The notes beneath the pieces are model-generated. The model made no database searches, was not told the origin of the DNA, and saw only the letters and a program-made list of their open reading frames with translations. A program made the translations under genes and the position numbers. A stretch of 64,000 nucleotides of DNA from Stropharia rugosoannulata (taxonomy: Eukaryota; Basidiomycota; Agaricomycetes; Agaricales; Strophariaceae), in NCBI GenBank assembly GCA_028532985.1, contig JANCIK010000001.1, positions 4,836,001 to 4,900,000 of the forward strand. The letters run 5' to 3'. Below, piece after piece: positions 46,031-62,149 of this stretch (position 1 is the stretch's first letter; each line of letters begins with the position of its first letter).

Positions 46031-47444
46031 TGTGAGGTCTGCCGTGGGGCTAGACTCGAATCACAAGAAACACAACACACACAACCCCAGCGGCGCGAGA
46101 TCCTATCACCTAGATCGAGCGACGCTCTTCAGCTAAGCGGGTTATAGATGTCTACGCTCTCCTGGTACCTCTCCGCTGAGCGGATCGTGATGTTTAAGGG
46201 TCTCGTAAGTTTCGTCCAGATGTCCGCTGTACAGTGCCTGCAAGTTCGTTTTTAAGGAGGGGTTTAATTCTAGAAGTCTCAGATTAATGTCTGGGCGACC
46301 TCCGCTGAGCGCAGGGTATCGATAGTAATGTATAGTTTTGATGGTGGCTCTGCGGGGCTTATTCCGCTGAGTGGGTTTGAGGTCCGGTGACCGATGCAAA
46401 CGCTCACACAAGCTGGTATTCCCAATTGTGCCTCGCTCCGCTGACTATCCAAAGTCGTTCCGCTGAGACTGTCCAAAGTCCTATTCCGCTGAGGCTATCC
46501 AGAACCTCGTTCACCCGGTGGTGCAGTCTCAATTCACAAAACACTACAGCGCGAGTTTTCGTACACGGTTGCACTGACTCCCCGCTGAGCTCTCCAAATG
46601 ACCCGGTGGCCAGAAGCTATCCAAAACTTCTATAATTCACAATACACTTCACAGTAAAACCCTAACAAAAGCTAAACACAGCCCGCTGACGGTCTGGGAC
46701 GGAGCCCAACACACAAATCTAGTGGGTAGACAATTGCTTGATTTCCGTAGTTACAATTACAAGTTTATATAGACAGGCCCTGTGTACTAATTTAGATGGA
46801 GAGTAAATACTAGCAACGCCGGACCAAAGGTCCGCCGAGCGCATGTGCCTCCGCTGGGCGTTTTGATGACTACTCCGCTGAGCGCGACCTGGGCCCGTTG
46901 TATTGCCAGACTCCATCGAGAGACGTTGTTAAACTCCGCTGGGCGGTTCCTTCTTGGTCATCGAGGCATGGCTACCGCTGCTAAGGTTTCCCCAGCGGAG
47001 TCCGTGCTGTGTGCATTATTCATTCCCCCGGGCATCACACGCTCCAGCGCGCGCGCCACGGTCACCTGACGAGTGGACTTAGGCAAATTTCGCCTTCGTG
47101 ATGTGTTCCGCTGAGCCCCCTTTGAGACGCCATCTACACACAGTCCTGCTCGTCGCCTTTGATATTTTCCGCTCAGCTGTACTCCTGTCTTCCGCTGAGA
47201 GGACAGTAACCGTTATGTGCTCCGCTGACAGCCGTTACGGTACTTCAACTGTGTACTTATGGCCTGTACAGTCCGCTGAACCCCACATAACTGCCCGCTG
47301 AGCACACGCGTGATGATTTGTGATGCACGCGCTGAGCGCTGAGACGGCTGACCAGGCTAGTCACCGCTCCGCTGGACCCCTGCACTTCGACCCGAACCGC
47401 CCGCTGTGGCCACTTACAGCCTTGAAGTAGATGCAGGCCTGTCA
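46031..47444 (-). repeat. 3' LTR of the Gypsy element
   Basis: 1414 bp, ending TGACAGG (as read on the minus strand at 47444) and CCTCACA at 46031. It contains about 24 copies of CCGCTG or its complement, mostly TCCGCTGAG. It differs from the other LTR at 46736, 46885, 46886, 47132 and 47432 only, as far as I could see. Confidence 0.95.
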
Positions 47445-47457
47445 TCTCCCCCTCACT
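47445..47457 (-). promoter_or_regulatory. Polypurine tract
   Basis: AGTGAGGGGGAGA on the minus strand directly abuts the 3' LTR. This is where plus-strand DNA synthesis is primed in LTR retrotransposons. Confidence 0.8.
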
Positions 47458-47844
47458 AAAAATTTTGACTGTCCTCAGTCAACTTCTGCACTTATTTTTA
47501 GCGTCCCTTGTTCTATTTTCAGATCTCCCAGCGCCTATTTGGCTATTTTTAATCTTTCGCGCATCTCCGCTGGCCAGTTTCATTGTTATCTGGTTCTTTC
47601 TCTTATTAAGGATATTCTTTTCCTATTTTGTGTTTCTTTCCGCTACCTCTAAACCCCGCTCTCTATGTAGGTTGCCTGAAAGTTTATCTGACGCCGCCCC
47701 AACGTATTTTTATTTTCCAGAAGATTCCTCCATTGAACCGGTATTTGGTTAAGAACCTGGGACCTTGCTCCCTTCTGGCCCTCATTCCTTTCCTTCCTCT
47801 CCTCGCAGACCACCTGCCTTCTTTATTTTCTCTACTGAACCGTC

Positions 47845-49862
47845 ATGGCTTTCCGCAACTTCGACCGCCGTCAACGCGACTACGAGCGCTCCGAGCGTCT
47901 CTTGGACGACCAGGATCGTTTTCGCCGTCTACGCCCCGCTCTCCTAGTCTATACGGAATTTGAAACCCTCGCTGGCCGCGACCGCCTTTCCTCTTCGGAC
48001 ACCACGCGCCTCGGCGAGCTCAAGAGTACGATCACCTCCGCCGTCGAACGCCACCTGTCCCGCTATCCTTCCGATGGTCTCTATCACCCCGGCGTCCGCG
48101 AGCTCTGCATTCTGCTGTCCTACATCGCCGAAGTCCAGCTGGCGAGCGGAGACATCGAAGAGCTCCCCACTGAAGCAATGTGGCTCACTAGCGGACACGC
48201 TCCGCTGGAATCTTACATCGAGTATTTCAAGACAGCTTTCCCCACCGCCTGGGACGGCTCAGACACTGCCGCTCCCCTCTCATCGGTCGTCAAGAGACGC
48301 CCCGCGCTGAGCACGTCATTGACTTGTCCGGCGACGTCGACATGGCCTCAGACCGCAACGCCTCGCCCCCTCCCTCCGCTGTCCGTCCAGACAAGCGTAA
48401 ACGCCTTCCTACCCCGCCCGTTGTTATCGTGCCCACCGCTGCGCCCCGTCCCAAGCCCACCAAGCGGCAGCGCCCCGCTGCTCTTGTGGCCACTGCTACC
48501 AATGCCGCCATTGCCGCTGCTGAGTCCGATTGGGACACTCCGGGTTTTGAGCTGGTCGTCCCTCCTTCTTCTGACGGTCCCCCGGCGGCTCTAGTGTCCA
48601 GCGGAATCCCCGAGATCACGAACCTCAAGCCTGATCTAAATAAGGTGGCCTACAAGTCGACTTATCCCATTCTCGACGTTCTCCCTCCTGTATTCTCCGC
48701 TAAAATGGCACTGGCCGGTACTCCGCTGCCAGACGCTATTGGGCTCGAGCTCCTTCCTTCTGAGCGCCGCCTTCAAGGGGCAATCGTGGTAAGTTTTAAT
48801 TTTACTTTTTTATTTGTTTTGTTCCCCTCAGCTGACGTCCCCTTGTCTTTCTTAGAAAGGAATGACTTGCAACCACTGCGCCCGCCCCTTCAATACTCGC
48901 ATGAACGAGGGCTTACATCAATGCATTTGTCGAGGTTGGGCTCGTAATTGCTGCACTTGCAGCACCCAGTCAAAAGGGAAGTGTTTCTTTTGCATGGAAC
49001 CCGCTGAGCTGGACAAGGCCATCGAGGACACTACTCTCTGGCACCGCACTTCCTTGACTAGTACGCCCTCTTTTTCTCCCTTGTCTTTATTATATTTTTC
49101 TTACATCTATTTCCCAATGAACTTTTAGGTCTTTTGTCTGGCTTCTCGCACCTCAGCGCATATTCCGATCAAGCGCGCGTGGCGGAGGAGCAGCGTAGGG
49201 CAGCGGAGCGACTTTACTTCGCTCAGCTGATCGAGCTGTCTCAACTCGCGCGGGCAATGGCATTGACCCTCCCCACTGGCTTGGTTATTGGACCTCGCTT
49301 CCGCGATTGCGAGACTTTCGACGCGCTCCGCAGTCTGGACTTGGATCGCCTCCGCGAAGCGTATGCCTCGCTCTGTGAGCCCGTCGTTATCGAGGACCCC
49401 GCTGTCGTTGCCCCGCTCGCTAAGTTTTATGATCCCAAGCATCCCCGTTACGACCCCTCCACCTTTATCCCCTCCCCCCAGCCAGAGCAGGCCATCACCC
49501 TCGAGGAATTCTTAGCTACAGAGTCGCAAGTTTTTGAAGACGCAGCGGGCCGCCAAGCAAGCGACGCCGACGCCCTCATCTCCGCGGAGAAGAAGAAAAA
49601 GAAGAAATCCAGTAAGAAGGTCTCCCCCGACCTTCCTCCTGCCCCTCTTCCTGAGCCTAGTGCTCCTCTTCCCCCCGCCTCTTCTTCAAAGGGCAAGACT
49701 CCGGTCTCCACTGGCCCTACCCCTCCTCCTGTCGCATCTTCTTCGAAGGGCAAGACTCCTGTCTCCGCTCGCCCTACCCCTCAGCTGCGCCCCGTTTTCT
49801 TGACCCCTTCCCGGGTCCCTAGCGAGGCAGACACCGACGATGCTCGTGCGGAGGGCGCTTAG
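47845..49862 (+). CDS. Antisense gene A: Cys-rich putative zinc-binding protein carried by the Gypsy element
   Basis: Starts MAFRNFDRRQRDYERSERLL. Likely exons are 47845-48218, 48260-48788, 48856-49060 and 49129-49862. The last two introns have excellent sites (GTAAGT...TTCTTAG; GTACGC...TTTTAG). The first (GTATTT...CTCAG, 41 bases) is inferred because it is the only pair I found that restores the frame. About 613 residues: a helical N-terminus, a basic Pro-rich stretch (PDKRKRLPTPP, KPTKRQRP), then a compact Cys cluster MTCNHCARPF...HQCICRGWARNCCTC...KCFFC. After that come a helical part (ARVAEEQRRAAERLYFAQLI) and a Lys/Ser/Pro tail with two SSKGKTPVS repeats. The Cys/His spacing suits a zinc-binding domain and the basic regions suit a nucleic-acid-binding nuclear protein. 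That function is inferred; no family is recognised. Confidence 0.65.
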
Positions 49863-49869
49863 TTCGATT

Positions 49870-50340
49870 GCCCCTGGGAGTTCCTTTCTTCAGGCCTTCG
49901 GGTCTTTTTATTTTCTTTTCTTTTGTGGTCTGCCTCTTGTCTACATTATCTAGCATATGTAATGTAGTTTTAACTGTTTTAGAAATACTCAAAATATGCT
50001 TTTCTTGTCCTTCTTTTTGTGTGACCTCTAAGTTTTCTTTTTCCAGGTGGGGCCCCGCTCAGCTGAGACTAGTCATGCCCACCAGCTCCCTTGTGTAAGC
50101 GTCTTTCCTTGTTTTTCTTCCCTTTTTCTTTTTGAAAAGTCTCTTATCTTCCTTTCTTTCCCGCATCTCTCTCAGCTGAGCTTCTCTCTTCGTTGTAGCA
50201 ACATGCCCCGCTGACCCCGCGCTTCGGCTATGCTGATTGCCCTGACTCTTTTCTCCTTGTGTCTGCTAAAGTCTTCCGTTCTCTGAACCTATGTTCAGGT
50301 CCGCTCAGCGGACTTCTTTCCCCATACGTGCTCCGTGGCC
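49870..50340. other. Spacer between antisense genes A and B
   Basis: Pyrimidine-rich plus strand (CTTTTCTTTTGTG, TTTTTCTTCCC) with several CCGCTGA/TCAGCTGA words. A short frame at 49868-50098 is hydrophobic (FFSFVVCLLSTLSS) but probably arises from the T-rich sequence. Confidence 0.4.
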
Positions 50341-50357
50341 CTCTTTTAGCGGCCTTT

Positions 50358-50375
50358 CTCCCCCTCACTATAAAA
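50358..50375 (+). promoter_or_regulatory. PPT-like/TATA module upstream of antisense gene B
   Basis: CTCCCCCTCACTATAAAA repeats the 13-base polypurine-tract complement (TCTCCCCCTCACT) of 47445-47457 and adds a TATAAAA box 47-53 bases before the gene B start. The downstream words TGTCCTCAGT are also shared with 47470. It may be a promoter, an internal polypurine tract, or both. Confidence 0.5.
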
Positions 50376-50421
50376 TCAGCTGTCCTCAGTTGACAGACTC
50401 TTTATTCTTCTTCCTTTAGTC

Positions 50422-50894
50422 ATGCAACGCTACCAGCGTACCAACGTCGCCCGCCAGTTCACCTGCATCCTCAAGCAGCTGGCTGTCCATGCTGAGCTCA
50501 CCGAAGACTCCGCTGAGACCACGCTCCATTTGCCATTGCAGTCCGCGCAGGCGGTTGTCCGTGCTCTGGTAAGGCCTACTTCTATAGATTCTACTCCGCT
50601 GACTATTTTCCACAGGACCGAATTACCCTTCCGCTGAGATTCGTTGACTTTAATCGTCAATTTCTATCGTTCCTCATGACCATCGTGTTTTACGAGGCCC
50701 GCGCCCAGCGGAAGTTCAGCGATGATCATTTCGACCCTCGCTTACTCAGTAATGCCGCTTTACGCATTCTCGACCGATACAGTCATCTGGGCATGCCCTT
50801 CCATCTGCTGCCTTCTTCTGAGCGAATTGCAGCCGATGTTCAAGAAGTGGACCCTGATGCCGCGCTCATCGTAGACGACGTGTGCTCTGATTAG
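50422..50894 (+). CDS. Antisense gene B: unknown 141-residue protein carried by the Gypsy element
   Basis: Exons 50422-50568 and 50616-50894 join in phase (GTAAGG...TCCACAG). The product begins MQRYQRTNVARQFTCILKQL, is mostly helical, and ends in an acidic tail EVDPDAALIVDDVCSD. No signal, membrane helix or known motif. It is transcribed opposite to gag-pol, with a TATAAAA box at 50369-50375. Size and helical character resemble gene C next to it, which starts 70 bases further on. The ordered frame, consistent intron phase and a promoter-like box argue for a real gene. Function unknown. Confidence 0.62.
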
Positions 50895-50921
50895 GGTGGT
50901 CCGCTGCGCTGACCATCTTCG

Positions 50922-50933
50922 TATATAATATAA
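50922..50933 (+). promoter_or_regulatory. TATA-like box of antisense gene C
   Basis: TATATAATATAA 31-42 bases upstream of the gene C start codon. Role inferred. Confidence 0.45.
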
Positions 50934-50963
50934 CTCCCTCTGTCTGTATTCGTATACGCCAAC

Positions 50964-51560
50964 ATGCCCTCCTTGTCCGCTGAGAGTAATCTCTTATTAC
51001 TTGCACATTCCGATCCTCGCATCCTTCGTCTCGATGCTTTGTCTAGACGTCCGCTGAGTGACATTCCTCCCCACGATGTAGCCCGAGTATGCCGAATCTA
51101 TATAACTGCCCTTCACTATATTCTGGAATCCGCTGCAGAGGAACAGCTACCCATGAGTGTCTGCCTCCCGCTGCTTAACCGAGTTCAAGATCACGCTGTA
51201 AGCCCCTTCTCCACAGTCCATGCACTCCCACTGAGTAGTCCGCGCAGCGCGGCCTGGAGCTGACCGAGTCCACCTGTCATTCACCGCTTCTTTCTCATCT
51301 CTGCGCTCAGCTGTATTACACCGAACTTGTGCTTCGTCTGTGTGGTACCAACGACGCTGAGCGCTACGGCGTTCTTAATCACACCGAACACTTTCAACGC
51401 CTCCATTATGCCGCCCAGCATTTCTACCAGGAGGACTTCTTCCCCGTCTGTCCCCTTTTCTCTTCCTTTTCCGCTGCGCTGAGACCAGGATTATGTCAGG
51501 ATGTTTGAGGTATTGCGCCCCTTCCTTGGTTTACTCCGTAGAGTACCCTTGTTACAGTAA
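50964..51560 (+). CDS. Antisense gene C: unknown 146-residue protein carried by the Gypsy element
   Basis: Three exons (50964-51197, 51311-51445, 51489-51560) join in phase. The introns begin GTAAGC and GTCTGT and end CTCAG and ACCAG. The protein starts MPSLSAESNLLLLAHSDPRI, is helical (DVARVCRIYITALHYILESA; LYYTELVLRLCGTND) and ends FEVLRPFLGLLRRVPLLQ. The last exon is inferred; without the second splice the frame ends a little earlier, at about 51510. No recognised domain. It sits between genes B and D on the same strand, so three compact genes follow each other within 3 kb. Confidence 0.55.
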
Positions 51561-51569
51561 CCAGAGTAA

Positions 51570-51910
51570 ATGGCTCTACATGTGGTGCCTCCATAGCTAT
51601 TTGAAATGACAAGTATCTAGTTAGGCACTATGTATTGTCGGTGCCAGTACCTGATTCGGACATAATTTTTCCAAATGCGGTAATCACACGATCAGCCTCC
51701 GCTGAGCGCTTTCAGCTAGGCGCGCCTCTCCGCTGGATCTCATTTCGTCTATCAACTGCTCCCGCGCTGCACCCCGTTTTATGCGAGCCTGCATGTGGTG
51801 GTCTGTCTCTACCTCCAGCGTTCATACCATAACTCCGCTGGGAGTCTGGTCCGCTGGGATGCCACATTCCTCGCCACTGGCCACCCTTCCTTAGGTCCTC
51901 TGCCTCCGCT
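51570..51910. other. Spacer between antisense genes C and D
   Basis: Contains several TCCGCTGAG/TCCGCTGG words and no recognisable frame of its own. The short plus-strand frame at 51635-51832 lacks support. Confidence 0.4.
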
Positions 51911-51915
51911 GAGCC

Positions 51916-51924
51916 TATATATAT
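51916..51924 (+). promoter_or_regulatory. TATA-like box of antisense gene D
   Basis: TATATATAT 36-44 bases upstream of the start codon at 51960. Role inferred. Confidence 0.45.
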
Positions 51925-51959
51925 GCCCTACTCTCCTACTTTGAATCACTCAGCCACTA

Positions 51960-53274
51960 ATGTCCAACGCACCCGCTCCGCTGTACAACTTTAGTAATGT
52001 CAAGCACCAGCTGGCATTAATCCAAGATATCAGAGGCTTGGCTTCTGCCATGCCTTCCAACTATACCGGGAGCCTCGAGCTTCTGGCTATTGACTTAGTA
52101 CGCACAGCACTCAGCTAGTCCGCTGGGTCTTTTACTCCGCTGACCACTCGAACTTTTTAGAACCGCTGGCGTGATCCCCACGGCGGCATTACTCGTATCA
52201 TTAATAACAGCGAGGCTGTTGATATTCTCAACGAGACGCGTGCCATCTACACCTCCTTGGAGGCGGATCACCACTTCCGCACTTTCTCTCCCGCTGCCAA
52301 CGCTTTTATCACTCTGCATGAGCAAGTTTTAAAAGCGAAAGCCGCTGCCTCGCGCCAGCGCATGCACACTCCCACTGGACCAGTACGCTGTGTGCTTGCC
52401 GCCTCTCTTTATCTTTTTAACCGTCCGCTCAGCGCAACGTTCGCCTCCTCTCGCGCTCCGCTGCCGATCCTGAAACGGTCTCTGCCCCTGGAGGTACCTC
52501 CTCCCCCGATTCTGATGACGACAAGGTGTGACTGACTTCCTTCACCCTTTTAGATATTACTAACATGCAGCTGTACCTCCTCCTTAAAAAGATGGCCCTC
52601 GATGACAAGATCGAGGCTGCCACTGAGGGCGGAGTACCTAGCCGCCAGAATACCCCAGAGCCTAGTCCTTCAAAGAAGCGCTCAGCGCCTCCTCCCGACA
52701 CTCCTCGTCAGGTTCGTTCTATTGCGTTTTTCTTCCCTCGTTACTTTCTCACTTCTATGTCAGCGGGAGCGTACTGAGGCCAGCGGACATCGCACTCGTG
52801 TGCTTGGCCGCGGCATGACACTCCGCTCTTCTGACAACCGGCGCTCTCCGCGCGACACACCGTTCCACGACGCTTCCTCTAAGAAGGCCCATCTCGGCGC
52901 TGACGGCGTTCCTACTTTCGCTGATTCTCCTTTCATTGTACAAGGTGCGCTCTTTGCCCTTATTTTTCTCTGTTGCGTCCGCTGAGCTCTTTCATCTTCT
53001 TTTAGGTACCAATCTTACTCTCTCGAACGACAAGGTCAATGCCTGTCTCGACGCCGCTACCAACCTCCTTAAGGAACCGCTGAACACCGGGAACCCATCC
53101 GAACTCGTCACTCGCCGTCTCATTGGAGACTTGCAAGCTGAGATCATCTGTGACTTGCACAAGATTGACTTCATCCTGAAGCGCCGCGCTCTGCTCGTTA
53201 AAGAGTTAGAGACTTTACAGCGCAGCTTGGATTTGACTGGGACCAGCCCCGCTGAGGAGCCCGCGCCACAGTGA
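51960..53274 (+). CDS. Antisense gene D: unknown six-exon protein (347 residues) carried by the Gypsy element
   Basis: Exons 51960-52097, 52161-52382, 52433-52525, 52571-52711, 52764-52944 and 53006-53274 add up to 1044 bases, an exact multiple of three, with no internal stop. The intron before exon 4 carries a perfect TACTAAC branch site followed by ATGCAG. The product begins MSNAPAPLYNFSNVKHQLAL. It has a helical first part (EQVLKAKAAASRQR), an acidic/Ser-rich linker (TSSPDSDDDK), a basic disordered middle (SPSKKRSAPPPDTPRQ; GRGMTLRSSDNRRSPRD) and a helical C-terminal third (LIGDLQAEIICDLHKIDFIL) ending EEPAPQ. No domain is recognised; the layout is that of a nuclear or nucleic-acid-associated protein. 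It converges on pol, ending 120 bases from the pol stop. Five in-phase introns make chance very unlikely. Confidence 0.72.
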
Positions 53275-53394
53275 CGGCCTTCTTAATTACTCCGCTGAGC
53301 GCCTCAAAGTGGTCCTTAGCTAGTTTCTTTTGTACCTTTCTCCTTTAGTTTACCCAATATATTCTATTGTGGTCTCCTTTTCTACTTTGTGCCT

Positions 53395-56300
53395 CTAAGC
53401 ATCGGGCTCCGCCCACCCATCCTCATCATCATCTTCTTCGTCCGCTGGGACTTGGCCGCTGCCTGAAACCACCCCTGGTTCATCAAAGATATAGTCTTTA
53501 GGTATGGCCGGCTCGTAGTCTGGCGCTGACATCATCTTGTTGAGATTCTCGCGCGTTTGATCAATGATATCGTCTAAGTCCGCTGGCAGCTTCAGCTGGC
53601 GCCTGGCGAAGTAGGGTATTAAGCGGAATGCTGCGACTTTGTCTTTCAGCACCGACCCATCCAGCTCAGCGACTAGATAAGCGCCTCCTTCCTTCCGCGC
53701 GATGACAATGTATGGTCCATTCCAGCGCGCCAACATTTTGCGATTTAAGCTGGACTCAATGCCAGAGTTACGCATCAGTACGACATCGCCAGGTTTGAAC
53801 GCATAGTCCCTAATCTTAGCGGAGTGTTTTCGCTCAAACTCTCTGATAGCATCCCGCTTTATCTTTGACACTCGCTGACGCATTTCCTCCACTGTGTCCC
53901 TATGCTTGGCCAGCGCGCGCGCACGATACCCTACTAACTCCTCTGTGGTAAGTACGCGATCTGGTAACTTGACCAGCCATGTCGCCTCAGCGATGTCCAG
54001 CGGTAGTATCGGGTGCGCGCCAGTGACCATGAAGAAGGGTGAACACCCAAATCCGCGGCGCACTGTAACGCGGTCCGCCCACAGCACATGGTAGAAGAAC
54101 TTGCTCCAGCGCTTATGTGCGCCCTCGGTACCACCACACGCTTTCCACAACATTTGTCTGATGTCCCAATGGGGCCGCTCTATCTTTCCGTTCGCCTGAG
54201 AGTTGTACGCTGAGATTGTAATCCCTGTAATACCATACTTCTTTTCCAAGTACTTGAGCGCTGCGCGGAACGGTCCACCGTTATCCGTGATTATCTCTCT
54301 AAGACATCCCCAGCGGCAGATAATATCCTCAAACATCCACTGCGCTATCGCCCTTGCATTCTCTTTCTTCAGCGGACGACCTTCCACCCATGAGCTCAGC
54401 GCACACCGTCCGTGCACTATGTAGTTATACCCATTTGAGGCAGGCGACATGTGCATAGTGTCCGCGTGTAGCTGCTGGAAGATGGAAGGCGTATGTGTCT
54501 CCGTCCGCGGAATCTGGATGATCGTCTTTTGCCTCAGCTGACACACATGGCATGTCTTGACATACCAGTAGACGTCCCGCTCCAGCTCTGGCCACCAGAA
54601 GCGCTCCATCAGCAGTTTGCGCGTGGCGTATGCGCCTCTGTGCCCCAGACTGTCATGCGCGGCGCGCAACATACGCGTCCGCTGAGCGGGATCAACTACC
54701 AGCTTATGTGCCTCATCCACTGAGCGCCGATACATCCGCCCATCCTTGTCTAAGAAGAAGTTTCGTGCGTTACGGATGAAATTCTGATACTCCCGCTCGC
54801 TCATATCCTTGGGTCTTGTACTGGGATTTTGCAGCCAATACCTTATCATTGGCAGCTTATCATCCATGTCCTTCCCCGCTGACGTTCGGTTCCGCTCATC
54901 GTACTCTTCGTCTTCCAACTCATCTATCTTTGACTCTGGAATTACATGTGCCAGAACAAATTTCTCTAAGTACGCCCGCTGAGCGGGCGACACCTCCTCT
55001 GTCTGTAGGAAGTTACACACTGTTCGCTGTTCTTCTCTCGTCTCTTTTCTCGCCCGCTCCAGCTCTAACTGGAAACAGTCCACCGAATGTGCCTCTGCTC
55101 TAGCTGGCTCAGCGGGACCATCAAACAACTCGTTGAGGAATCCAGCTTGTAGATATCCTCCGCGGTCGTCAATCTGGTCCTTGAACTCTTCTAAACTCAG
55201 CGGATCGGGATCCTCTTCATACACTTTCTCGTACTCCAGCGGACCTACTTCTTGGTCATCATCCTCCGCTGAGTGCTCATACTCTTCATCTCCTGGTTGT
55301 CCTTCTCGTCGCGACAGGCCGTCCGCGCCAAACGTTTTGCCTGCTACATGCTTCAGCTGAAAGTGGTACATAAGGATCTTGTCTATCCAGCGGTTAATGG
55401 TAGCGTTAGGTCCCATGCCCGGATTATCCAACATCCCTTTGAGATATTTGGCATCCGTCTCCACTACCAACTTCCGCGCTCCGATGAGCCAGTAATAGCA
55501 CGCCTGCAGCGCTCGCAATAGCCCATATAGCTCTCTCTTTGGTTGTGAGAACCGCTGTTCCCTCTCAGTTAACAGAATTGACCCAAAGCGGGCGTACACA
55601 CGCTTCTTCGCGTTCAGCGGATCTTGCTGGTAGATATAAAATCCTACAGCGCGCCAAGACGTATCTACTGCCAGCGTGATCGGTCCTGGCAGTGTATAGT
55701 CCAGCGGCTTGACACAGTGTGCGTTCCGCGCTCCATCCTTCAGTGCATCCATACTGGCTTGCTGCGCTGGCCCCCACTCGAAGGGTTCTTTCCCACGCAA
55801 CAATCGCTGTATGTGCTCCGCTCGCTTAGCGTAGTCTGAGATGTAAATACGCAGGAGCCCCATCGTACCCATGAAGGCGCGCACATCGCTGACATTCTTA
55901 CACGGTCCCCAGTTGAGGATAGCGTGCACTTTATCTGGCGCTGGCTTTCGACCTTCGTAGGTACATAAGTGTCCCACCACTACAATCTCCGCTGCGCACA
56001 ATATGGATTTCTTTCCGCTGAAAGTCCCTCCTGAGTACTTCATCCGCTGAACTATCCTATTCACATTCTGCATGTGTTCCCACACGAAACGCCTGATTCC
56101 GCTGTTCTCTGGAATCGTCTCGTACCCTCCATCCTCTAATTCATACCGTGTCTTCGGTCCGCGGATAGGCACATCGTCAATGTACGGCTCCGTGACGTCT
56201 GGTATTTCATCGCGGAGAATATAAGTCACATCTTCATGAAAGATGGGTACAGAATTGGTCCAGCCCATTGGTAAGGTTACTAAGCGGAGCGCACCAAACG

Positions 56301-57330
56301 GTGTCTGGAATGTTGTCAAGTCGCGAGACGACTCCGCTAAGAGTCGCTCGTCGTAGCCGACATACAAGTCCAGTATTCCGCCGCACGCACGCCCAGCGAA
56401 GTGTTCCGCCAGACTCTCCGCTGCCGGTGGCAATCCTGAGTGCGCGATGGTAACAGCGTTCAGCGGCTCTAAGCTATGTACTATTCTAAAGGACACCCCG
56501 TCTTTCTTTGTTACTGTGAACCAGCGCGACCGGTATGATGAACTGGATGGTTCATAAGTCCCAGCGCGGATCTTAGTAGCGATGAACTCGCACACCCGCT
56601 CGTACATGCCTGGCGGAATGGGTATATTTTTCAGTACCCACGGCGTATGTTCTACCGTTGGAATATCTACCGGCGGGAAGAAGTCTGTTCTAAACCTCCC
56701 CTTTTCCGTGTCATCCCACGCGAACGCCTCATTCTGCTGCATGAACACCTGATGTACTAGCTTGCGCTCTTCTGGCCACAGGAAATCTCCTCCGTGCGCT
56801 TTATCTATTTCCTCCTTCCGCTCCGCTGTGTACCTTCCCGTGGGCACGAACTCTGGTGGGTGTACCGTCAGCGGAGGCATTTCCTTCAGCGGATCTCCCT
56901 TTATCTCTCTCACTATTCTGAATTTCTCTGGCAGCTCTTGATAAACGGGCCTGACCTTGTCAGCGACTGGTTTATATTTCTTTCCTGCAAAGACGGTTAC
57001 GGTAGTGGCATTCTTACCAGTTAACCGCTTTCTAGTTACTCCTTTCCGCGCTGACTGGCCTTGCTCGGGGTCCGCTGAGCGGAATTGCCCCCTAGGCTCT
57101 CCTTTCACCGTCTCTTTTTCTCGCCATTCTTTTTGCTGAAAGTACTTATAAATTGATGCTTTCTCTTTATCCTCCATCTTAGCCTCGTGCACAGCTTGAG
57201 CCATGTACACATCTCTCAGCTCAGCGGAGCCAAATCTCCCTCCCTTCTTTGGCAACGCATACCCTGCTATCTCTATCTTTCCAGTCTTATCATCCCGCTC
57301 GAACATTAACGCGACCTCTCCTTGACGCAT
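53395..57330 (-). CDS. pol: Gypsy pol: reverse transcriptase, RNase H, integrase
   Basis: About 1311 residues. RT: LDLYVGYDE (first catalytic Asp, ~322), FQTPFGALRLVTLPMGW and the YIDD box (~384-387). RNase H: AVDTS (Asp ~557), KRELYGLL (Glu ~601), VETDAKYL (Asp ~627) and GADGLSRR (Asp ~671). Integrase: zinc finger H-X4-H-X29-C-X2-C (~893-931), then catalytic Asp in LHADTMHM (~958), Asp in ITDNGGPF (~1017) and Glu in NGKIERPHWD (~1052), a D,D(34)E core. NGPYIVIARKEGGAYLVAEL is the GPY/F module. No chromodomain follows; the tail is acidic. The start is the ATG at 57330, which overlaps the stop of the upstream frame as TGATG. All catalytic residues are present, so the enzyme set should be active. 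Confidence 0.95.
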   Translation of the reverse strand: MRQGEVALMFERDDKTGKIEIAGYALPKKGGRFGSAELRDVYMAQAVHEAKMEDKEKASIYKYFQQKEWREKETVKGEPRGQFRSADPEQGQSARKGVTRKRLTGKNATTVTVFAGKKYKPVADKVRPVYQELPEKFRIVREIKGDPLKEMPPLTVHPPEFVPTGRYTAERKEEIDKAHGGDFLWPEERKLVHQVFMQQNEAFAWDDTEKGRFRTDFFPPVDIPTVEHTPWVLKNIPIPPGMYERVCEFIATKIRAGTYEPSSSSYRSRWFTVTKKDGVSFRIVHSLEPLNAVTIAHSGLPPAAESLAEHFAGRACGGILDLYVGYDERLLAESSRDLTTFQTPFGALRLVTLPMGWTNSVPIFHEDVTYILRDEIPDVTEPYIDDVPIRGPKTRYELEDGGYETIPENSGIRRFVWEHMQNVNRIVQRMKYSGGTFSGKKSILCAAEIVVVGHLCTYEGRKPAPDKVHAILNWGPCKNVSDVRAFMGTMGLLRIYISDYAKRAEHIQRLLRGKEPFEWGPAQQASMDALKDGARNAHCVKPLDYTLPGPITLAVDTSWRAVGFYIYQQDPLNAKKRVYARFGSILLTEREQRFSQPKRELYGLLRALQACYYWLIGARKLVVETDAKYLKGMLDNPGMGPNATINRWIDKILMYHFQLKHVAGKTFGADGLSRREGQPGDEEYEHSAEDDDQEVGPLEYEKVYEEDPDPLSLEEFKDQIDDRGGYLQAGFLNELFDGPAEPARAEAHSVDCFQLELERARKETREEQRTVCNFLQTEEVSPAQRAYLEKFVLAHVIPESKIDELEDEEYDERNRTSAGKDMDDKLPMIRYWLQNPSTRPKDMSEREYQNFIRNARNFFLDKDGRMYRRSVDEAHKLVVDPAQRTRMLRAAHDSLGHRGAYATRKLLMERFWWPELERDVYWYVKTCHVCQLRQKTIIQIPRTETHTPSIFQQLHADTMHMSPASNGYNYIVHGRCALSSWVEGRPLKKENARAIAQWMFEDIICRWGCLREIITDNGGPFRAALKYLEKKYGITGITISAYNSQANGKIERPHWDIRQMLWKACGGTEGAHKRWSKFFYHVLWADRVTVRRGFGCSPFFMVTGAHPILPLDIAEATWLVKLPDRVLTTEELVGYRARALAKHRDTVEEMRQRVSKIKRDAIREFERKHSAKIRDYAFKPGDVVLMRNSGIESSLNRKMLARWNGPYIVIARKEGGAYLVAELDGSVLKDKVAAFRLIPYFARRQLKLPADLDDIIDQTRENLNKMMSAPDYEPAIPKDYIFDEPGVVSGSGQVPADEEDDDEDGWAEPDA

Positions 57331-58595
57331 CAAATCATCGAGGACTGAAAATCCTGGTCGGCGTGCGGCTCCTCCGCTGCGCTGGAGTCCTGCACATCTG
57401 GCTCCCGCTGAAGTATCTTCGCCCGCACTCGATTATACGTAGGTACCACTAGCTTCCGCTGAGTGTTTGGGTCCGTCAGCGTAAGTTCCACTGTGCCATC
57501 CCCGCGCGTCTTCACATTGCTTTCAGTGAGAATCTCAAACGGCTTCCCCAACAGAACCTCGTAAGCGGCCGCGCTGATAACGTGCACTTGTAGGTACACT
57601 GTCAGTCCGCTGAACACAAAAGGTACATTCCGCGCTAAGCCCTTAGTCGACTCGACTTGTTTGTTAGCGCTCTGCATCCTAATGGTAAAGTCAGGATCCC
57701 AGCTTAAGCCTAGTCGCTCCGCGGTATCTTGCGCCATAGACACTATTTGTGATCCGCTGTCGAGCAGAGTCTCTGCACGGCCTTTCCCATTAATCAGTGG
57801 AAATACCGCCTTGAGATGGTGCGACTCTCGTGCCACAATTAATCCCTTGGGCTTTTCGCCTGGTTGTAGCGTCGAGATATACTGCTCATAGGGATCCTCC
57901 ATGATTATTGTGCCGGGTTGTAAGCCACCGCGCTCCTCCGCGCAAGTGAGGAATGTCGCCGCTGGGAGCTCGTCCATTCGCATGAACTCTTCTTCTTCAT
58001 TCTCCTGTTTCAGCTGGGCGATGGCCTCGTCCATCTCCCACTCCTCTGCCTCATAATCCAGCTGCAAAACCCGCATGGTATTTACATCCAGCGGAACCTT
58101 GCGCGGTATGATGCGCTCAACAAACTTCCTCCTAAACCCCGCTGTAGAGATCCCCAATAATTGTCCTTGAGTGATCTCTATTTTCTGGCTCTCTAAACGC
58201 TTAAGGACTTCGTCCGCTTGCGCTTCATCCTCAATGGCCGCGCGCAACTTATACGCTGGCTTCCTCTTCTCTATTACTGGCATCGGCGCCTCTCTTACCG
58301 GCGGCCGACTCTTTTCTGGTACGCGCAACGGAGGAACCATTACATATGGCACCTGCGCTGGCTTTTTATTCTCCCCAATTTTCTGCGCTGGCGCTGCGAA
58401 GCTTACTTTCTTTTTCTCCGCTCCGCTGGGCGCCTGTCTACTGATCTCCTCTATGAACTCTTCCTCATCTCCGCTGTCGACCTCCTCGATAGTTGTCCTT
58501 GGTGTACTTCTTACTGGTAGCTTCTTATTTACGTCTTCCGGGTTCTTGGGTTTATCAGAGCCGCTACGCTGAACTCTGCCCGCGCTTCCCTTCAT
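57330..58595 (-). CDS. Gypsy aspartic protease frame
   Basis: 421 residues. A basic N-terminus leads through a charged helical region to the retroviral-type protease: AETLLDSGSQIVSMA (catalytic Asp ~279), a flap-like region and YEVLLGKPFEIL, which takes the place of the ILG/LLG motif. It would act as a dimer to process Gag and Pol. The frame starts five bases after the gag stop and its own stop overlaps the pol start (TGATG). Protease is thus in a separate frame from both gag and RT, an unusual three-frame layout. Confidence 0.88.
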   Translation of the reverse strand: MKGSAGRVQRSGSDKPKNPEDVNKKLPVRSTPRTTIEEVDSGDEEEFIEEISRQAPSGAEKKKVSFAAPAQKIGENKKPAQVPYVMVPPLRVPEKSRPPVREAPMPVIEKRKPAYKLRAAIEDEAQADEVLKRLESQKIEITQGQLLGISTAGFRRKFVERIIPRKVPLDVNTMRVLQLDYEAEEWEMDEAIAQLKQENEEEEFMRMDELPAATFLTCAEERGGLQPGTIIMEDPYEQYISTLQPGEKPKGLIVARESHHLKAVFPLINGKGRAETLLDSGSQIVSMAQDTAERLGLSWDPDFTIRMQSANKQVESTKGLARNVPFVFSGLTVYLQVHVISAAAYEVLLGKPFEILTESNVKTRGDGTVELTLTDPNTQRKLVVPTYNRVRAKILQREPDVQDSSAAEEPHADQDFQSSMI

Positions 58596-58600
58596 CAGAC

Positions 58601-60550
58601 TTAATCGAAACCCTGGCTCAGCGCTGCATCCCGCTCCGCTTTCATAGTCGCGATCAGCTGCCGCTGTTCCTCTATCACCTCCTCTGGCGTCTTGACCGCT
58701 GAGCGCTCCTTTAAGAACGCCTTCCGACTGTCCAGCTCCTGTTGTAGTGTTCGAATTTGCTCCTCATAAGTCTCATCGAGAGAGCTGGCTGGTTGGTAGA
58801 CCTGGGCGTACACCATGCTCGGCGGAGTCCCCATGTACGCTGGGTGTACCGGCGCCATATAGGTCTGCTGCGCTGGCGGCCCATTCTTCTTATGCCACTC
58901 GTCTACACGTTCTTTGATAGCGCGCGAAGGGTCCCAAGGTAATGACGATCCATCTGGCAGCTGGAGCCTTCCAGCTTCCGTGATGATTATCTTCCCAGCG
59001 GACAGATCCTGTTGCCTCACAATACACTCCGCTACGATGTGTCCCGTCTGTTTACAATAGAAGCACCTCGGTTCCGGTCGTTGTTGGTATTGAAACGGAC
59101 GCGGCGGCGCTCCGCTGAAACCTGGTCCTCCCATTGGCATCATAGGTACCGCTGGCTGGACTGGCGCAGCGACAGGTGCTGCCCGCAACGACATTACATT
59201 GCGCAGAATGTCTTCCAACTCCTTCTTATTGGTCTCCTTTGACTTTGACACTGTCTTTTCTACCAGCGACAACGTATCTTTAAACGACGCTACAAAGCCC
59301 TTCAAGTCCTCAATTTCCCCGCGCAGCGTATGCACCTCCGCTGACTCGGTCTTGATGGCAGGCACAGGCATGAGCCCATCCGCTGAGTCTCGACTCAAGC
59401 TGAGCGAAGTGCTAGGATTCTTGGTGCGCGCCATCTGCTCTGCCATTTCCGCCACCTGTTTCAGCGGATACATGTCCTCAGTCCGCGCCTCCACCTGAAT
59501 CCCCGCTGGCGCCGTAAAGGGTATATTGCGTTCTTTTAGGTACTTGTCAAACGACGTCCTCGTAGTGTAGTCAATATCCAGCTTGTTAAACAACCTCTCC
59601 CTGAACCCCGCTGTGAGACTGTTGGTGAAGTAGGTCACCAGCGTATGATTAGCCAGCAAGGTAGGCGCCTTGGTCAACTTCGCTGCCTCCGCTAAGAATG
59701 CCCGCTTGAAGTCCAACAGCACCTGGAGGTCTTCCTCCGAGATGCGCTGGTTCTCCTTGCAAAGTTTCTTTAGACGCGCGATGGACCCCGTCTGAATACT
59801 GATCACCTCAGGATATTCATTGAGGATCATCTTCTTCAGCTCAGCGTAACTCTTGGTGTCATAGCCTGGTAAATTCTTCCACTCCTCCGCTGTCTGCATG
59901 GGTACATATTTGATTACATAGCCTCTCCTCTCATCATCCTCCGTCACCTCAGCGCGCTTGAACCAGTCCTCTAAGTCCTCGAAGTAGCGTGGGAGTTCAT
60001 CACGCTCCGCGGTGGGGTCGAAGCTTGGTGCACCGCGCGCTCCGCGCACAGGCATAGATGTTTCCTTAGGCATGGTGATAATTTCCGGGGGCGGTTCGTG
60101 TTCACTTGTGGAAAAGTCTGATAATTCTCCTTCAAATATATCTCTGGCCACGCGCTCGGCCTCGCTCTCACTATTATCTGTCGTCCGCTGAGCGGATCTC
60201 TTAGCAGTCTCGAATACTTCCGAAAACGGAGGAGGTGTGTCTTGAGTGGCTTGGCTATCTGATGAGCCAAATGGTGCGACTTCAAGCGTAATGTCTCCGT
60301 CCGCTGAGCGGTCGTCAGTTTCAATTCCAGAAGGCGGTCCCCAGAATCCGCTGGGCCCGTCCTCCCGCTCTGAGTCACTCTCTGTAAGCGCTCCTGGTAC
60401 GCGCTGAGCAAGATCCTGCGTTTCTATCTGTAGCCACGCCTCTTCCCTTGCTTTCCTCTTCGCTTTTCTATCTCGAGTAGGTGTAATCACCAATGGTTCC
60501 ACAAGCTCAGCGTCTTTCTTGCTCCTAGTCGATCGCCCGCTTGGAGGCAA
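58601..60550 (-). CDS. gag: Gypsy Gag (capsid and CCHC nucleocapsid)
   Basis: 649 residues. The N-terminal 170 are charged and probably disordered. A capsid-like helical domain follows, with LPRYFEDLEDWFKRAEVTED and EEWKNLPGYDTKSYAELKKM (~190-270) as in the retrotransposon Gag family. Then comes a coiled segment and one zinc knuckle CFYCKQTGHIVAEC (496-509, C-X2-C-X4-H-X4-C). After the knuckle come a Pro/Tyr-rich linker and a C-terminal coiled coil (YEEQIRTLQQELDSRKAFLK). Gag packages the element RNA into virus-like particles in the cytoplasm. The start ATG at 60550 lies about 185 bases from the 5' LTR. Confidence 0.92.
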   Translation of the reverse strand: MPPSGRSTRSKKDAELVEPLVITPTRDRKAKRKAREEAWLQIETQDLAQRVPGALTESDSEREDGPSGFWGPPSGIETDDRSADGDITLEVAPFGSSDSQATQDTPPPFSEVFETAKRSAQRTTDNSESEAERVARDIFEGELSDFSTSEHEPPPEIITMPKETSMPVRGARGAPSFDPTAERDELPRYFEDLEDWFKRAEVTEDDERRGYVIKYVPMQTAEEWKNLPGYDTKSYAELKKMILNEYPEVISIQTGSIARLKKLCKENQRISEEDLQVLLDFKRAFLAEAAKLTKAPTLLANHTLVTYFTNSLTAGFRERLFNKLDIDYTTRTSFDKYLKERNIPFTAPAGIQVEARTEDMYPLKQVAEMAEQMARTKNPSTSLSLSRDSADGLMPVPAIKTESAEVHTLRGEIEDLKGFVASFKDTLSLVEKTVSKSKETNKKELEDILRNVMSLRAAPVAAPVQPAVPMMPMGGPGFSGAPPRPFQYQQRPEPRCFYCKQTGHIVAECIVRQQDLSAGKIIITEAGRLQLPDGSSLPWDPSRAIKERVDEWHKKNGPPAQQTYMAPVHPAYMGTPPSMVYAQVYQPASSLDETYEEQIRTLQQELDSRKAFLKERSAVKTPEEVIEEQRQLIATMKAERDAALSQGFD

Positions 60551-60717
60551 TATACCAAATGATGGTCTAGCCTCCGCTGGTTCTGCTAGCGACGACGGTG
60601 CAGGAAATTTGCCTCGCTTGTTACTCGTCCCCGTTGTATTTGAAATTTTTGAAATGTTTTGTAATAGGCGCTAAGCCGTGGTCCCCGAAACACTATATGA
60701 GATTTCTGAACCTACCC

Positions 60718-60733
60718 CTCGCGGTGGGCTCCA
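60718..60733 (-). promoter_or_regulatory. Primer-binding site
   Basis: Two bases from the end of the 5' LTR the minus strand reads TGGAGCCCACCGCGAG. TGG pairs with the CCA end of a tRNA. The implied tRNA end, GGTGGGC-U-CCA, has U before CCA, which is typical of tRNA-Cys. The exact tRNA is inferred. Confidence 0.65.
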
Positions 60734-60735
60734 GA

Positions 60736-62149
60736 TGTGAGGTCTGCCGTGGGGCTAGACTCGAATCACAAGAAACACAACACACACAACCCCAGCGGCG
60801 CGAGATCCTATCACCTAGATCGAGCGACGCTCTTCAGCTAAGCGGGTTATAGATGTCTACGCTCTCCTGGTACCTCTCCGCTGAGCGGATCGTGATGTTT
60901 AAGGGTCTCGTAAGTTTCGTCCAGATGTCCGCTGTACAGTGCCTGCAAGTTCGTTTTTAAGGAGGGGTTTAATTCTAGAAGTCTCAGATTAATGTCTGGG
61001 CGACCTCCGCTGAGCGCAGGGTATCGATAGTAATGTATAGTTTTGATGGTGGCTCTGCGGGGCTTATTCCGCTGAGTGGGTTTGAGGTCCGGTGACCGAT
61101 GCAAACGCTCACACAAGCTGGTATTCCCAATTGTGCCTCGCTCCGCTGACTATCCAAAGTCGTTCCGCTGAGACTGTCCAAAGTCCTATTCCGCTGAGGC
61201 TATCCAGAACCTCGTTCACCCGGTGGTGCAGTCTCAATTCACAAAACACTACAGCGCGAGTTTTCGTACACGGTTGCACTGACTCCCCGCTGAGCTCTCC
61301 AAATGACCCGGTGGCCAGAAGCTATCCAAAACTTCTATAATTCACAATACACTTCACAGTAAAACCCTAACAAAAGCTAAACACAGCCCGCTGACGGTCT
61401 GGGACGGAGCCCAACACACAAATCTAGTGGGTAGACAATTACTTGATTTCCGTAGTTACAATTACAAGTTTATATAGACAGGCCCTGTGTACTAATTTAG
61501 ATGGAGAGTAAATACTAGCAACGCCGGACCAAAGGTCCGCCGAGCGCATGTGCCTCCGCTGGGCGTTTTGATGACTACTCCGCTGAGCGATACCTGGGCC
61601 CGTTGTATTGCCAGACTCCATCGAGAGACGTTGTTAAACTCCGCTGGGCGGTTCCTTCTTGGTCATCGAGGCATGGCTACCGCTGCTAAGGTTTCCCCAG
61701 CGGAGTCCGTGCTGTGTGCATTATTCATTCCCCCGGGCATCACACGCTCCAGCGCGCGCGCCACGGTCACCTGACGAGTGGACTTAGGCAAATTTCGCCT
61801 TCGTGATGTGTTCCGCTGAGCCCCCTTTGAGACGCCGTCTACACACAGTCCTGCTCGTCGCCTTTGATATTTTCCGCTCAGCTGTACTCCTGTCTTCCGC
61901 TGAGAGGACAGTAACCGTTATGTGCTCCGCTGACAGCCGTTACGGTACTTCAACTGTGTACTTATGGCCTGTACAGTCCGCTGAACCCCACATAACTGCC
62001 CGCTGAGCACACGCGTGATGATTTGTGATGCACGCGCTGAGCGCTGAGACGGCTGACCAGGCTAGTCACCGCTCCGCTGGACCCCTGCACTTCGACCCGA
62101 ACCGCCCGCTGTGGCCACTTACAGCCTTGAAGTAGACGCAGGCCTGTCA
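60736..62149 (-). repeat. 5' LTR of the Gypsy element
   Basis: 1414 bp, nearly identical to 46031-47444 (offset 14705). It should hold the promoter for gag-pol. It is dense in TCCGCTGAG words, some arranged as the palindrome-like CCGCTGAGCGG. Confidence 0.95.

Follow-up and report, generated by a model that had tools for sequence, protein, structure and literature searches.

A Ty3/Gypsy retrotransposon of Stropharia rugosoannulata with four antisense intron-bearing genes, a dispersed family-specific motif and a hypervariable cassette

Antisense genes between pol and the 3' long terminal repeat (LTR) are a published retrotransposon design, found in the plant Grande/Retand elements and the fungal Boty (PMC11963269, PMC7264820), and no function is known for such accessory genes of LTR retrotransposons (PMC7264820). 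Here we describe a 16.1-kb Ty3/Gypsy element of the agaricomycete Stropharia rugosoannulata, from a 64,000-nt stretch of contig JANCIK010000001.1 (assembly GCA_028532985.1, positions 4,836,001 to 4,900,000, forward strand) that we call the window and in whose own numbering all coordinates are given. The element (46031..62149) is read right to left, with gag-pol on the minus strand, and four plus-strand genes, A to D, sit between pol and its 3' LTR. An initial annotation, made from the sequence by itself, knew of no Ty3/Gypsy design with so large a cargo (about 5.4 kb) of regulatory-looking genes; as regards the placement of the genes, such a design is already known from Grande/Retand and Boty (PMC11963269). 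Antisense placement is what the window element has in common with Grande, Retand and Boty (the last known to us through the description in PMC7264820); it differs from them in having four genes, nine introns, no Pfam domain in those genes, a dispersed motif and a hypervariable gene, and the word intron is absent from the Retand paper. No report that joins four intron-bearing antisense genes to a dispersed motif peculiar to the family and to a hypervariable cassette was found in the literature that we searched, most subscription papers and bioRxiv lying outside it.

Three other systems bear comparison. In the VANDAL elements of Arabidopsis, VANC proteins bind short motifs peculiar to each family, and they remove methylation (PMC5735166, PMC10398659); the likeness extends to related transposable element families each with its own short motif, to a rapidly diverging accessory protein and to element genes that lie beside the mobility genes; VANDALs are, however, MuDR-type DNA transposons of plants, whereas the carrier here is an LTR retrotransposon, and A is likened to VANC by description, A of the window type having no Pfam match. 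Fungal DNA transposons that bear TET/JBP genes (Kyakuja-Dileera-Zisupton and others) carry genes thought to counter silencing by 5-methylcytosine, none having been found in any retrotransposon according to PMC12730594; A–D of the window type are without a Pfam domain, so that no TET/JBP dioxygenase domain was found in them. Bdelloid rotifer LTR retrotransposons and terminons likewise have extra open reading frames (ORFs), but these are of esterase, exonuclease and envelope types, and no antisense intron-bearing set or dispersed motif is described in the available portions of PMC5408684 and PMC6431247.

Antisense genes that travel with the element

We call the family of the window element F1 and its sister family F2 (L029, L030, L031 and further stretches). 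The genome searched comprises 48 Mb in 20 contigs; its 46 hydrophobin matches above the cut-off, against none in 14 control genomes, mark the host as a fungus. Spliced models were tested on the window copy and 20 further F1 copies (21 in all), the 20 being the best-scoring near-full matches after the window, with about seven further near-full ones outside the sample; counts of intact genes therefore have to be read as leaning toward well-kept copies, and match lists as lower bounds. The window models contain nine introns (two in A, one in B, one in C and five in D), with the following exons.

47845..48788, plus strand: gene A exon 1; small frameshifting indel in the window copy, open in sister copies
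48856..49060, plus strand: gene A exon 2; Cys domain, candidate motif reader
49129..49862, plus strand: gene A exon 3; helical region (low-confidence model) and Lys-rich, low-complexity tail
50422..50568, plus strand: gene B exon 1
50616..50894, plus strand: gene B exon 2; protein of 141 aa
50964..51197, plus strand: gene C exon 1
51311..51508, plus strand: gene C exon 2; protein of 143 aa
51960..52097, plus strand: gene D exon 1
52161..52382, plus strand: gene D exon 2
52433..52525, plus strand: gene D exon 3
52571..52711, plus strand: gene D exon 4
52764..52944, plus strand: gene D exon 5
53006..53274, plus strand: gene D exon 6; protein of 347 aa

Gene B, with one intron, is open in 19 of the 21 copies, gene C, with one intron in the model that ends at 51508, in all 21, and gene D, with five introns, in 20; the 1,044-nt frame across five introns that had been predicted for D recurs as the exon total in 20 of the 21. 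All seven introns of B, C (its first intron) and D retain GT-AG borders in every copy, and most of them differ by a few nt in length among copies. A second intron of C, with the gene ending at 51560, was rejected on the loss of its GT or AG in 9 of the 21 copies. Gene A, which in the near-identical copy L009 encodes 628 aa with two introns, is fully open in 15 of the 21, interrupted by an insertion in L012 and marked by frameshifts or stops in five, among them the window copy. The ratio of nonsynonymous to synonymous divergence (dN/dS), which the initial annotation had proposed should lie below 1 under selection, is 0.114 for B, 0.147 for C and 0.145 for D (20 copies, L017 left out); D read in its two other frames gives 1.87 and 1.83. 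These values support purifying selection on B–D, which we take as stable parts of the element. As first noted, TATA-like boxes stand upstream of B, C and D, and they recur in 21 of 21 copies; promoters of their own are plausible for the antisense genes. On the whole the initial annotation was partly confirmed in what it observed and partly supported in how it interpreted this: its four plus-strand genes with consistent splice sites stand for B and D, while A is frameshifted here and C loses a second intron, and its cargo kept intact by selection is borne out by the dN/dS and exon lengths of B–D. It passed over the dispersed motif, the hypervariable nature of A and the frameshift in that gene.

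That the cargo moves with the element is best seen in L009, which lies elsewhere in the genome with its own CCGG duplication and flanks unrelated to those of the window copy (26% identity). In 9,452 aligned columns the two copies differ by 29 mismatches and 6 gap openings, and all introns are kept. Near-identity that includes the introns, between copies with different flanks, indicates that the intron-bearing cargo came through recent retrotransposition, in agreement with the stable antisense cargo first proposed; introns survive this passage because the genes are antisense, so that their introns stay in the genomic RNA. B–D were found in 20 of 20 further F1 copies. A search with the pol 3' end (40 of 115 candidates scored) listed 41 matches, two of which stop short of the pol end; when coordinates were compared by hand, gene D or part of it lay within 160 bases of 31 of 31 F1 and 8 of 8 F2 pol ends among the matches listed, although five of the 31 F1 ends have only a partial B–D block beside them or a block in two pieces. 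Homologous elements without A–D, the case against cargo that had been named in advance, did not appear: there was no cargo-free relative among the pol 3'-end matches listed. Single-copy passenger DNA was thus rejected (on the conserved models, the dN/dS values and the presence of D at the pol ends listed), as was a nested independent insertion, since gene order and place are identical in two families.

In the sister family, the order and strand of A, B, C and D beside pol are unchanged in L029, L030 and L031. Between F1 and F2 the pol protein is 90–91% identical (805–973 residues compared), D 78–79%, B 70–72%, C 62–65% and A 38–41%, and synonymous sites are saturated. Eight further 2-kb stretches all match F2, and no further family with a further motif was found among them.

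A dispersed motif and a hypervariable gene

The F1 motif TCCGCTG(A/G) is dispersed through 46031..62149, in LTRs, introns and gag-pol coding sequence alike. The octamer TCCGCTGA occurs 52 times in the element (both strands, both LTRs) and is absent from the remaining 47.9 kb of the window. By k-mer enrichment the F1 motif was recovered in 6 of 6 F1 sequences (window, L010, L013, L016, L022 and L028), and TCCGCTGA was absent from L029–L031; TCCGCTG was counted 45–54 times per 9.5–10 kb in the six sequences and 29–53 times over the 20 further loci including flanks. The F2 motif is the palindromic TGCGCGCA, and L029–L031 hold TGCGCGC 51–69 times on both strands together, a full palindrome counting twice here and in the shuffles too. 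Genome-wide, TCCGCTGAG was found 1,471 times vs. 280 for its reversed control, and many of the first 100 places listed cluster at F1 copies.

Codon-preserving shuffles of the F1 coding sequences gave far fewer motifs than observed (pol 18 vs. 2.45, maximum 7 of 500; protease 7 vs. 0.85; gag 9 vs. 1.05), as did dinucleotide shuffles elsewhere (LTR 16 vs. 0.22; A block 7 vs. 0.63; B–D block 21 vs. 0.47). The corresponding F2 counts of TGCGCGC were 13–16 vs. 3.0–3.75 in pol, where for L029 the top shuffle reached 13 vs. 14 observed, 7–17 vs. 0.3–0.7 in the LTR part and 23–37 vs. 1.5–1.9 in the cargo. Neither family was clearly enriched for the motif of the other (TGCGCGC in F1 pol, 4 vs. 2.3; TCCGCTG in F2 pol, 1–2 vs. 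0.35–0.68). An effect of codon usage or CpG composition was rejected on both kinds of shuffle. Spacing of the F1 motif is random, Poisson-like (coefficient of variation, CV, 1.10), its density is highest in the LTR (13.4 per kb), and within the cargo it reaches 3.2 per kb of exon vs. 6.5 per kb of non-exon sequence, in a tally whose A exon bounds deviate by a base or two. Across 18 aligned LTRs, nucleotide diversity (pi) at non-CpG positions of the motif hexamers is 0.014 vs. 0.063 in local flanks, with 1 of 1,402 mask shifts as low, and at their CpG positions 0.072 vs. 0.126; taken together, selection appears to maintain the motif.

Gene A lies in a block that differs sharply from the rest of the backbone.

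47445..50420, plus strand: hypervariable cassette with gene A, a high-divergence block from near the LTR inner edge to the start of B

Mean synonymous divergence (dS) between the A types a, b and c is 1.78–2.08 in A; between the same groups it is 0.28–0.32 in B, 0.08–0.14 in C, 0.09–0.10 in D and 0.09–0.13 in the C-terminal part of pol (14 A genes and up to 17 pol sequences, A being near synonymous saturation; L012, L019, L021, L026, L027 and the window copy were left out of A comparisons, and L017 also from the A-group rates). Gene A dN/dS is 0.11–0.26 overall and 0.15–0.26 between the three types, again near saturation at synonymous sites. F2 behaves likewise, with an A dS of 0.94–2.13 (first 500 codons) vs. 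0.17–0.20 for pol. Single pairs are uncoupled in both directions: L011 and L018 differ at 2.3% of residues in A, 9.6% in B and 2.7% in pol, L009 and L011 at 33% in A and 1.8% in pol, and 7 of 66 pairs (12 copies) combine a pol difference under 2% with an A difference over 30%. Distances in A are uncorrelated with those in B or C (r 0.01 and 0.00). Judged by these comparisons, A cassettes are exchanged between backbones. Gene A has two introns in L009, three in type b and four in type c; F2 gene A has an intron ~370 nt past the ATG, as in type c, and L029 also has the following phase-1 intron, so that types b and a probably lost introns precisely and stepwise. The possibility that A types set the motif within F1 was rejected for the tested copies, all of which share the motif. 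As a separate observation, the F1 copy L026 has upstream of gene A a DIFTKAL stretch that resembles a Ty1/Copia RNase H end and would belong to a neighbouring or nested element.

By eye, protein A has KRKR/KRQR runs resembling nuclear localization signals as well as a Cys domain, features that support the earlier impression that the antisense genes are regulatory rather than structural. The Cys domain, in exon 2, follows the pattern C-x2-C-x12-H-x-C-x8-C-x2-C-x7-C (L009 numbering), and none of its seven Cys/His positions varies among four A proteins of the two families. Its identity between types a and b, 0.87, is the highest of six parts of A, and to type c it is 0.66 and 0.71; between families it drops to 0.26–0.32, while its two neighbouring domains keep 0.51–0.59. 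Kept with a fixed motif and changed with a changed one, the domain behaves as expected of a specificity domain. Pfam matched no family to A–D of the window type, and a DIL match in one of the four A proteins was weak (E 0.046); PDB profile searches gave none for A and one chance-level match for D; NCBIfam gave weak CopZ-like matches to A, far under cut-off; a scan of IMG/VR with A gave no relative; and structure predictions from single exons were of low confidence (mean predicted local distance difference test scores 48.5 and 52.2).

Changes at CpG sites hint at host silencing. In six F2 stretches with C/D sequence (L033–L038; L030 and L031 not included) compared with L029, 5–31% of CpG sites are changed vs. 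2.4–5.0% elsewhere, nearly all by transitions, and few motif sites remain in most of the six. Between the window copy and L009, 2.1% of CpG sites in B–D are changed vs. 0.2% of others. With six DNA methylase matches in the genome, this CpG decay suggests that the host methylates these elements.

Anatomy of the window copy

The remaining features of the element are as follows.

46031..47444, minus strand: 3' LTR (element orientation, left copy), 1,414 nt, with 22 CCGCTG/CAGCGG motif hexamers
47445..47457, minus strand: polypurine tract (PPT) AGTGAGGGGGAGA, adjoining the 3' LTR
53395..57333, minus strand: pol ORF, 1312 aa; RNase H then integrase zinc-binding (H2C2) domain, in Ty3/Gypsy order; YIDD by eye
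57330..58595, minus strand: protease ORF, 421 aa; retropepsin-type, PF13975/PF13650
58601..60550, minus strand: gag ORF, 649 aa; weak zinc knuckle, 19.0 bits (Pfam cut-off 20.8)
60717..60733 (length approximate), minus strand: primer-binding site (PBS), two bases from the 5' LTR, complementing a tRNA-type 3' end
60736..62149, minus strand: 5' LTR (element orientation, right copy), 1,414 nt, with 5 mismatches vs. the left LTR

The LTRs have TG..CA ends and the element is flanked by a 4-bp target duplication, ACGT. Gag, protease and pol were rightly read from right to left, as minus-strand ORFs, with protease, RNase H and integrase zinc-binding domains found by Pfam in Gypsy order; Pfam returned no reverse transcriptase or integrase-core match for pol, the former being read by eye from YIDD alone, and no match for two other ORFs of the window. 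The PBS and PPT that had been placed at the LTR borders also held up: the PPT abuts the 3' LTR, the 15-mer adjoining the 5' LTR occurs 153 times in the genome vs. 0 for its reversed control, and the tRNA-type 3' end TTCRANN-CTCGC-GGTGGGC 11 times vs. 0 reversed. ARAGORN found no tRNA in six loci with the PBS-like 15-mer. The target duplications of the window copy (ACGT) and L009 (CCGG) are both 4-bp self-complementary words, and an integration preference is possible.

What the antisense genes might do

We give about even chances to the reading that A, by analogy with VANC, binds the motif of its family and protects or activates copies of that family. Protein A would bind its own family's motif via the Cys domain, would coat copies of that family only, and would there counter host silencing by CpG methylation or activate transcription, with B–D acting as its partners. 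Outside the Cys domain, A would persist in many old variants, which recombination in the course of reverse transcription would move from one backbone to another and which would be retained, we propose, because they face host factors or competing copies. A fuller version, a fungal parallel to VANDAL self-recognition, is more tentative: A would read a CpG-bearing motif that synonymous change has written along the entire element, its coding sequence included, and would so release its family's copies from CpG methylation; motif and reader would have switched together, giving two sister families that do not interfere, and the rest of A would be an old pool of variants maintained by an arms race against the host.

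Several observations weigh against a motif-reading A. The gene is broken in the window copy itself, and no known DNA-binding family was recognised in A–D by Pfam, PDB profile and NCBIfam searches. Only in comparison with its neighbours is the Cys domain conspicuous, since the linker (0.25–0.30) and C-tail (0.11–0.17) of A are as low or lower between families and the YKSTYP domain matches it in a-c and b-c conservation (0.66 and 0.74); moreover there are two families only, so the joint switch of motif and Cys domain is a correlation that rests on a single event. Shuffling of A is not free, its distances correlating with those of pol (Mantel r 0.30, 29 of 2,000). The A block is the poorest in F1 motifs, at 2.0 per kb, and the F1 orientation bias of 62 vs. 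23 is not required by a pure double-strand reader. Constraint on the LTR motif weakens with a 7-base mask that includes the less fixed last base (non-CpG 0.034 vs. 0.046), and in a CpG-only LTR permutation the count was 219 of 5,000. The CpG excess is patchy in F1, at least 1.5-fold in 8 of 20 copies (B–D) and less or none in the rest. Finally, VANC motifs are tandem repeats in noncoding DNA, whereas here they are dispersed (CV 1.10) and also lie in gag-pol.

The same observations bear on four other explanations. A host transcription factor or insulator, another in each family, might bind the motif, leaving A–D to other tasks, for example import into the nucleus or assembly of particles; a host protein of this kind is Su(Hw), which binds gypsy in Drosophila. 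Constraint on LTR motif sites, conserved TATA-like boxes that show transcription signals to matter and the lack of a known DNA-binding family in A–D all fit such a factor, but motif enrichment extends to the coding sequence of gag and pol, a long way from promoters and above what codon usage gives, the genome-wide excess of the motif is ~1,190 over control, and the two families have strongly different Cys domains in A; we regard this explanation as unlikely. We find it harder still to favour a repressor or copy-control module, in which A would limit transcription at its own sites and the diversity of A would let variants escape resident copies, much as lambdoid phages swap immunity regions. 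It would account for a hypervariable cassette in a homogenised backbone, for cassette exchange and for own-family sites, yet the tested F1 A types share one motif and a fairly conserved Cys domain, so that immunity types would not be set by DNA sites.

An action of the motif in RNA is, if anything, a shade more doubtful: sites in the genomic RNA would recruit a family-specific Gag or accessory RNA-binding protein and confer packaging specificity, which would select different motifs in different families too. The F1 orientation bias (62:23) and the weak zinc knuckle of gag are in its favour, but the about equal orientations in pol (9 vs. 13) and the palindromic form of the sister motif point to double-stranded DNA. 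Least probable, and disfavoured, is the view of the antisense genes as tolerated passengers, with a motif spread neutrally or in a conversion-like manner and an A that varies by weak constraint. Such passengers could be broken as A is in five of 21 copies and interrupted as it is in one, but they would not be expected to show dN/dS of 0.11–0.15 in B–D and 0.11–0.26 in A, fixed exon lengths and constrained LTR motif sites, and weak protein constraint cannot give A a synonymous divergence ~15–20 times that of C, D and pol.

The function of antisense genes can be put to the test through these sister families, whose motifs, spread over the whole element, are different and whose A proteins diverge strongly in one domain. 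The hypervariable cassette shows retroelement copies swapping an old allele pool inside a homogenised backbone. If A does read the motif, then by the literature searched neither a retrotransposon nor a fungus would have been known before to have a sequence-specific system of anti-silencing (or copy control), and this one could supply proteins for epigenome editing.

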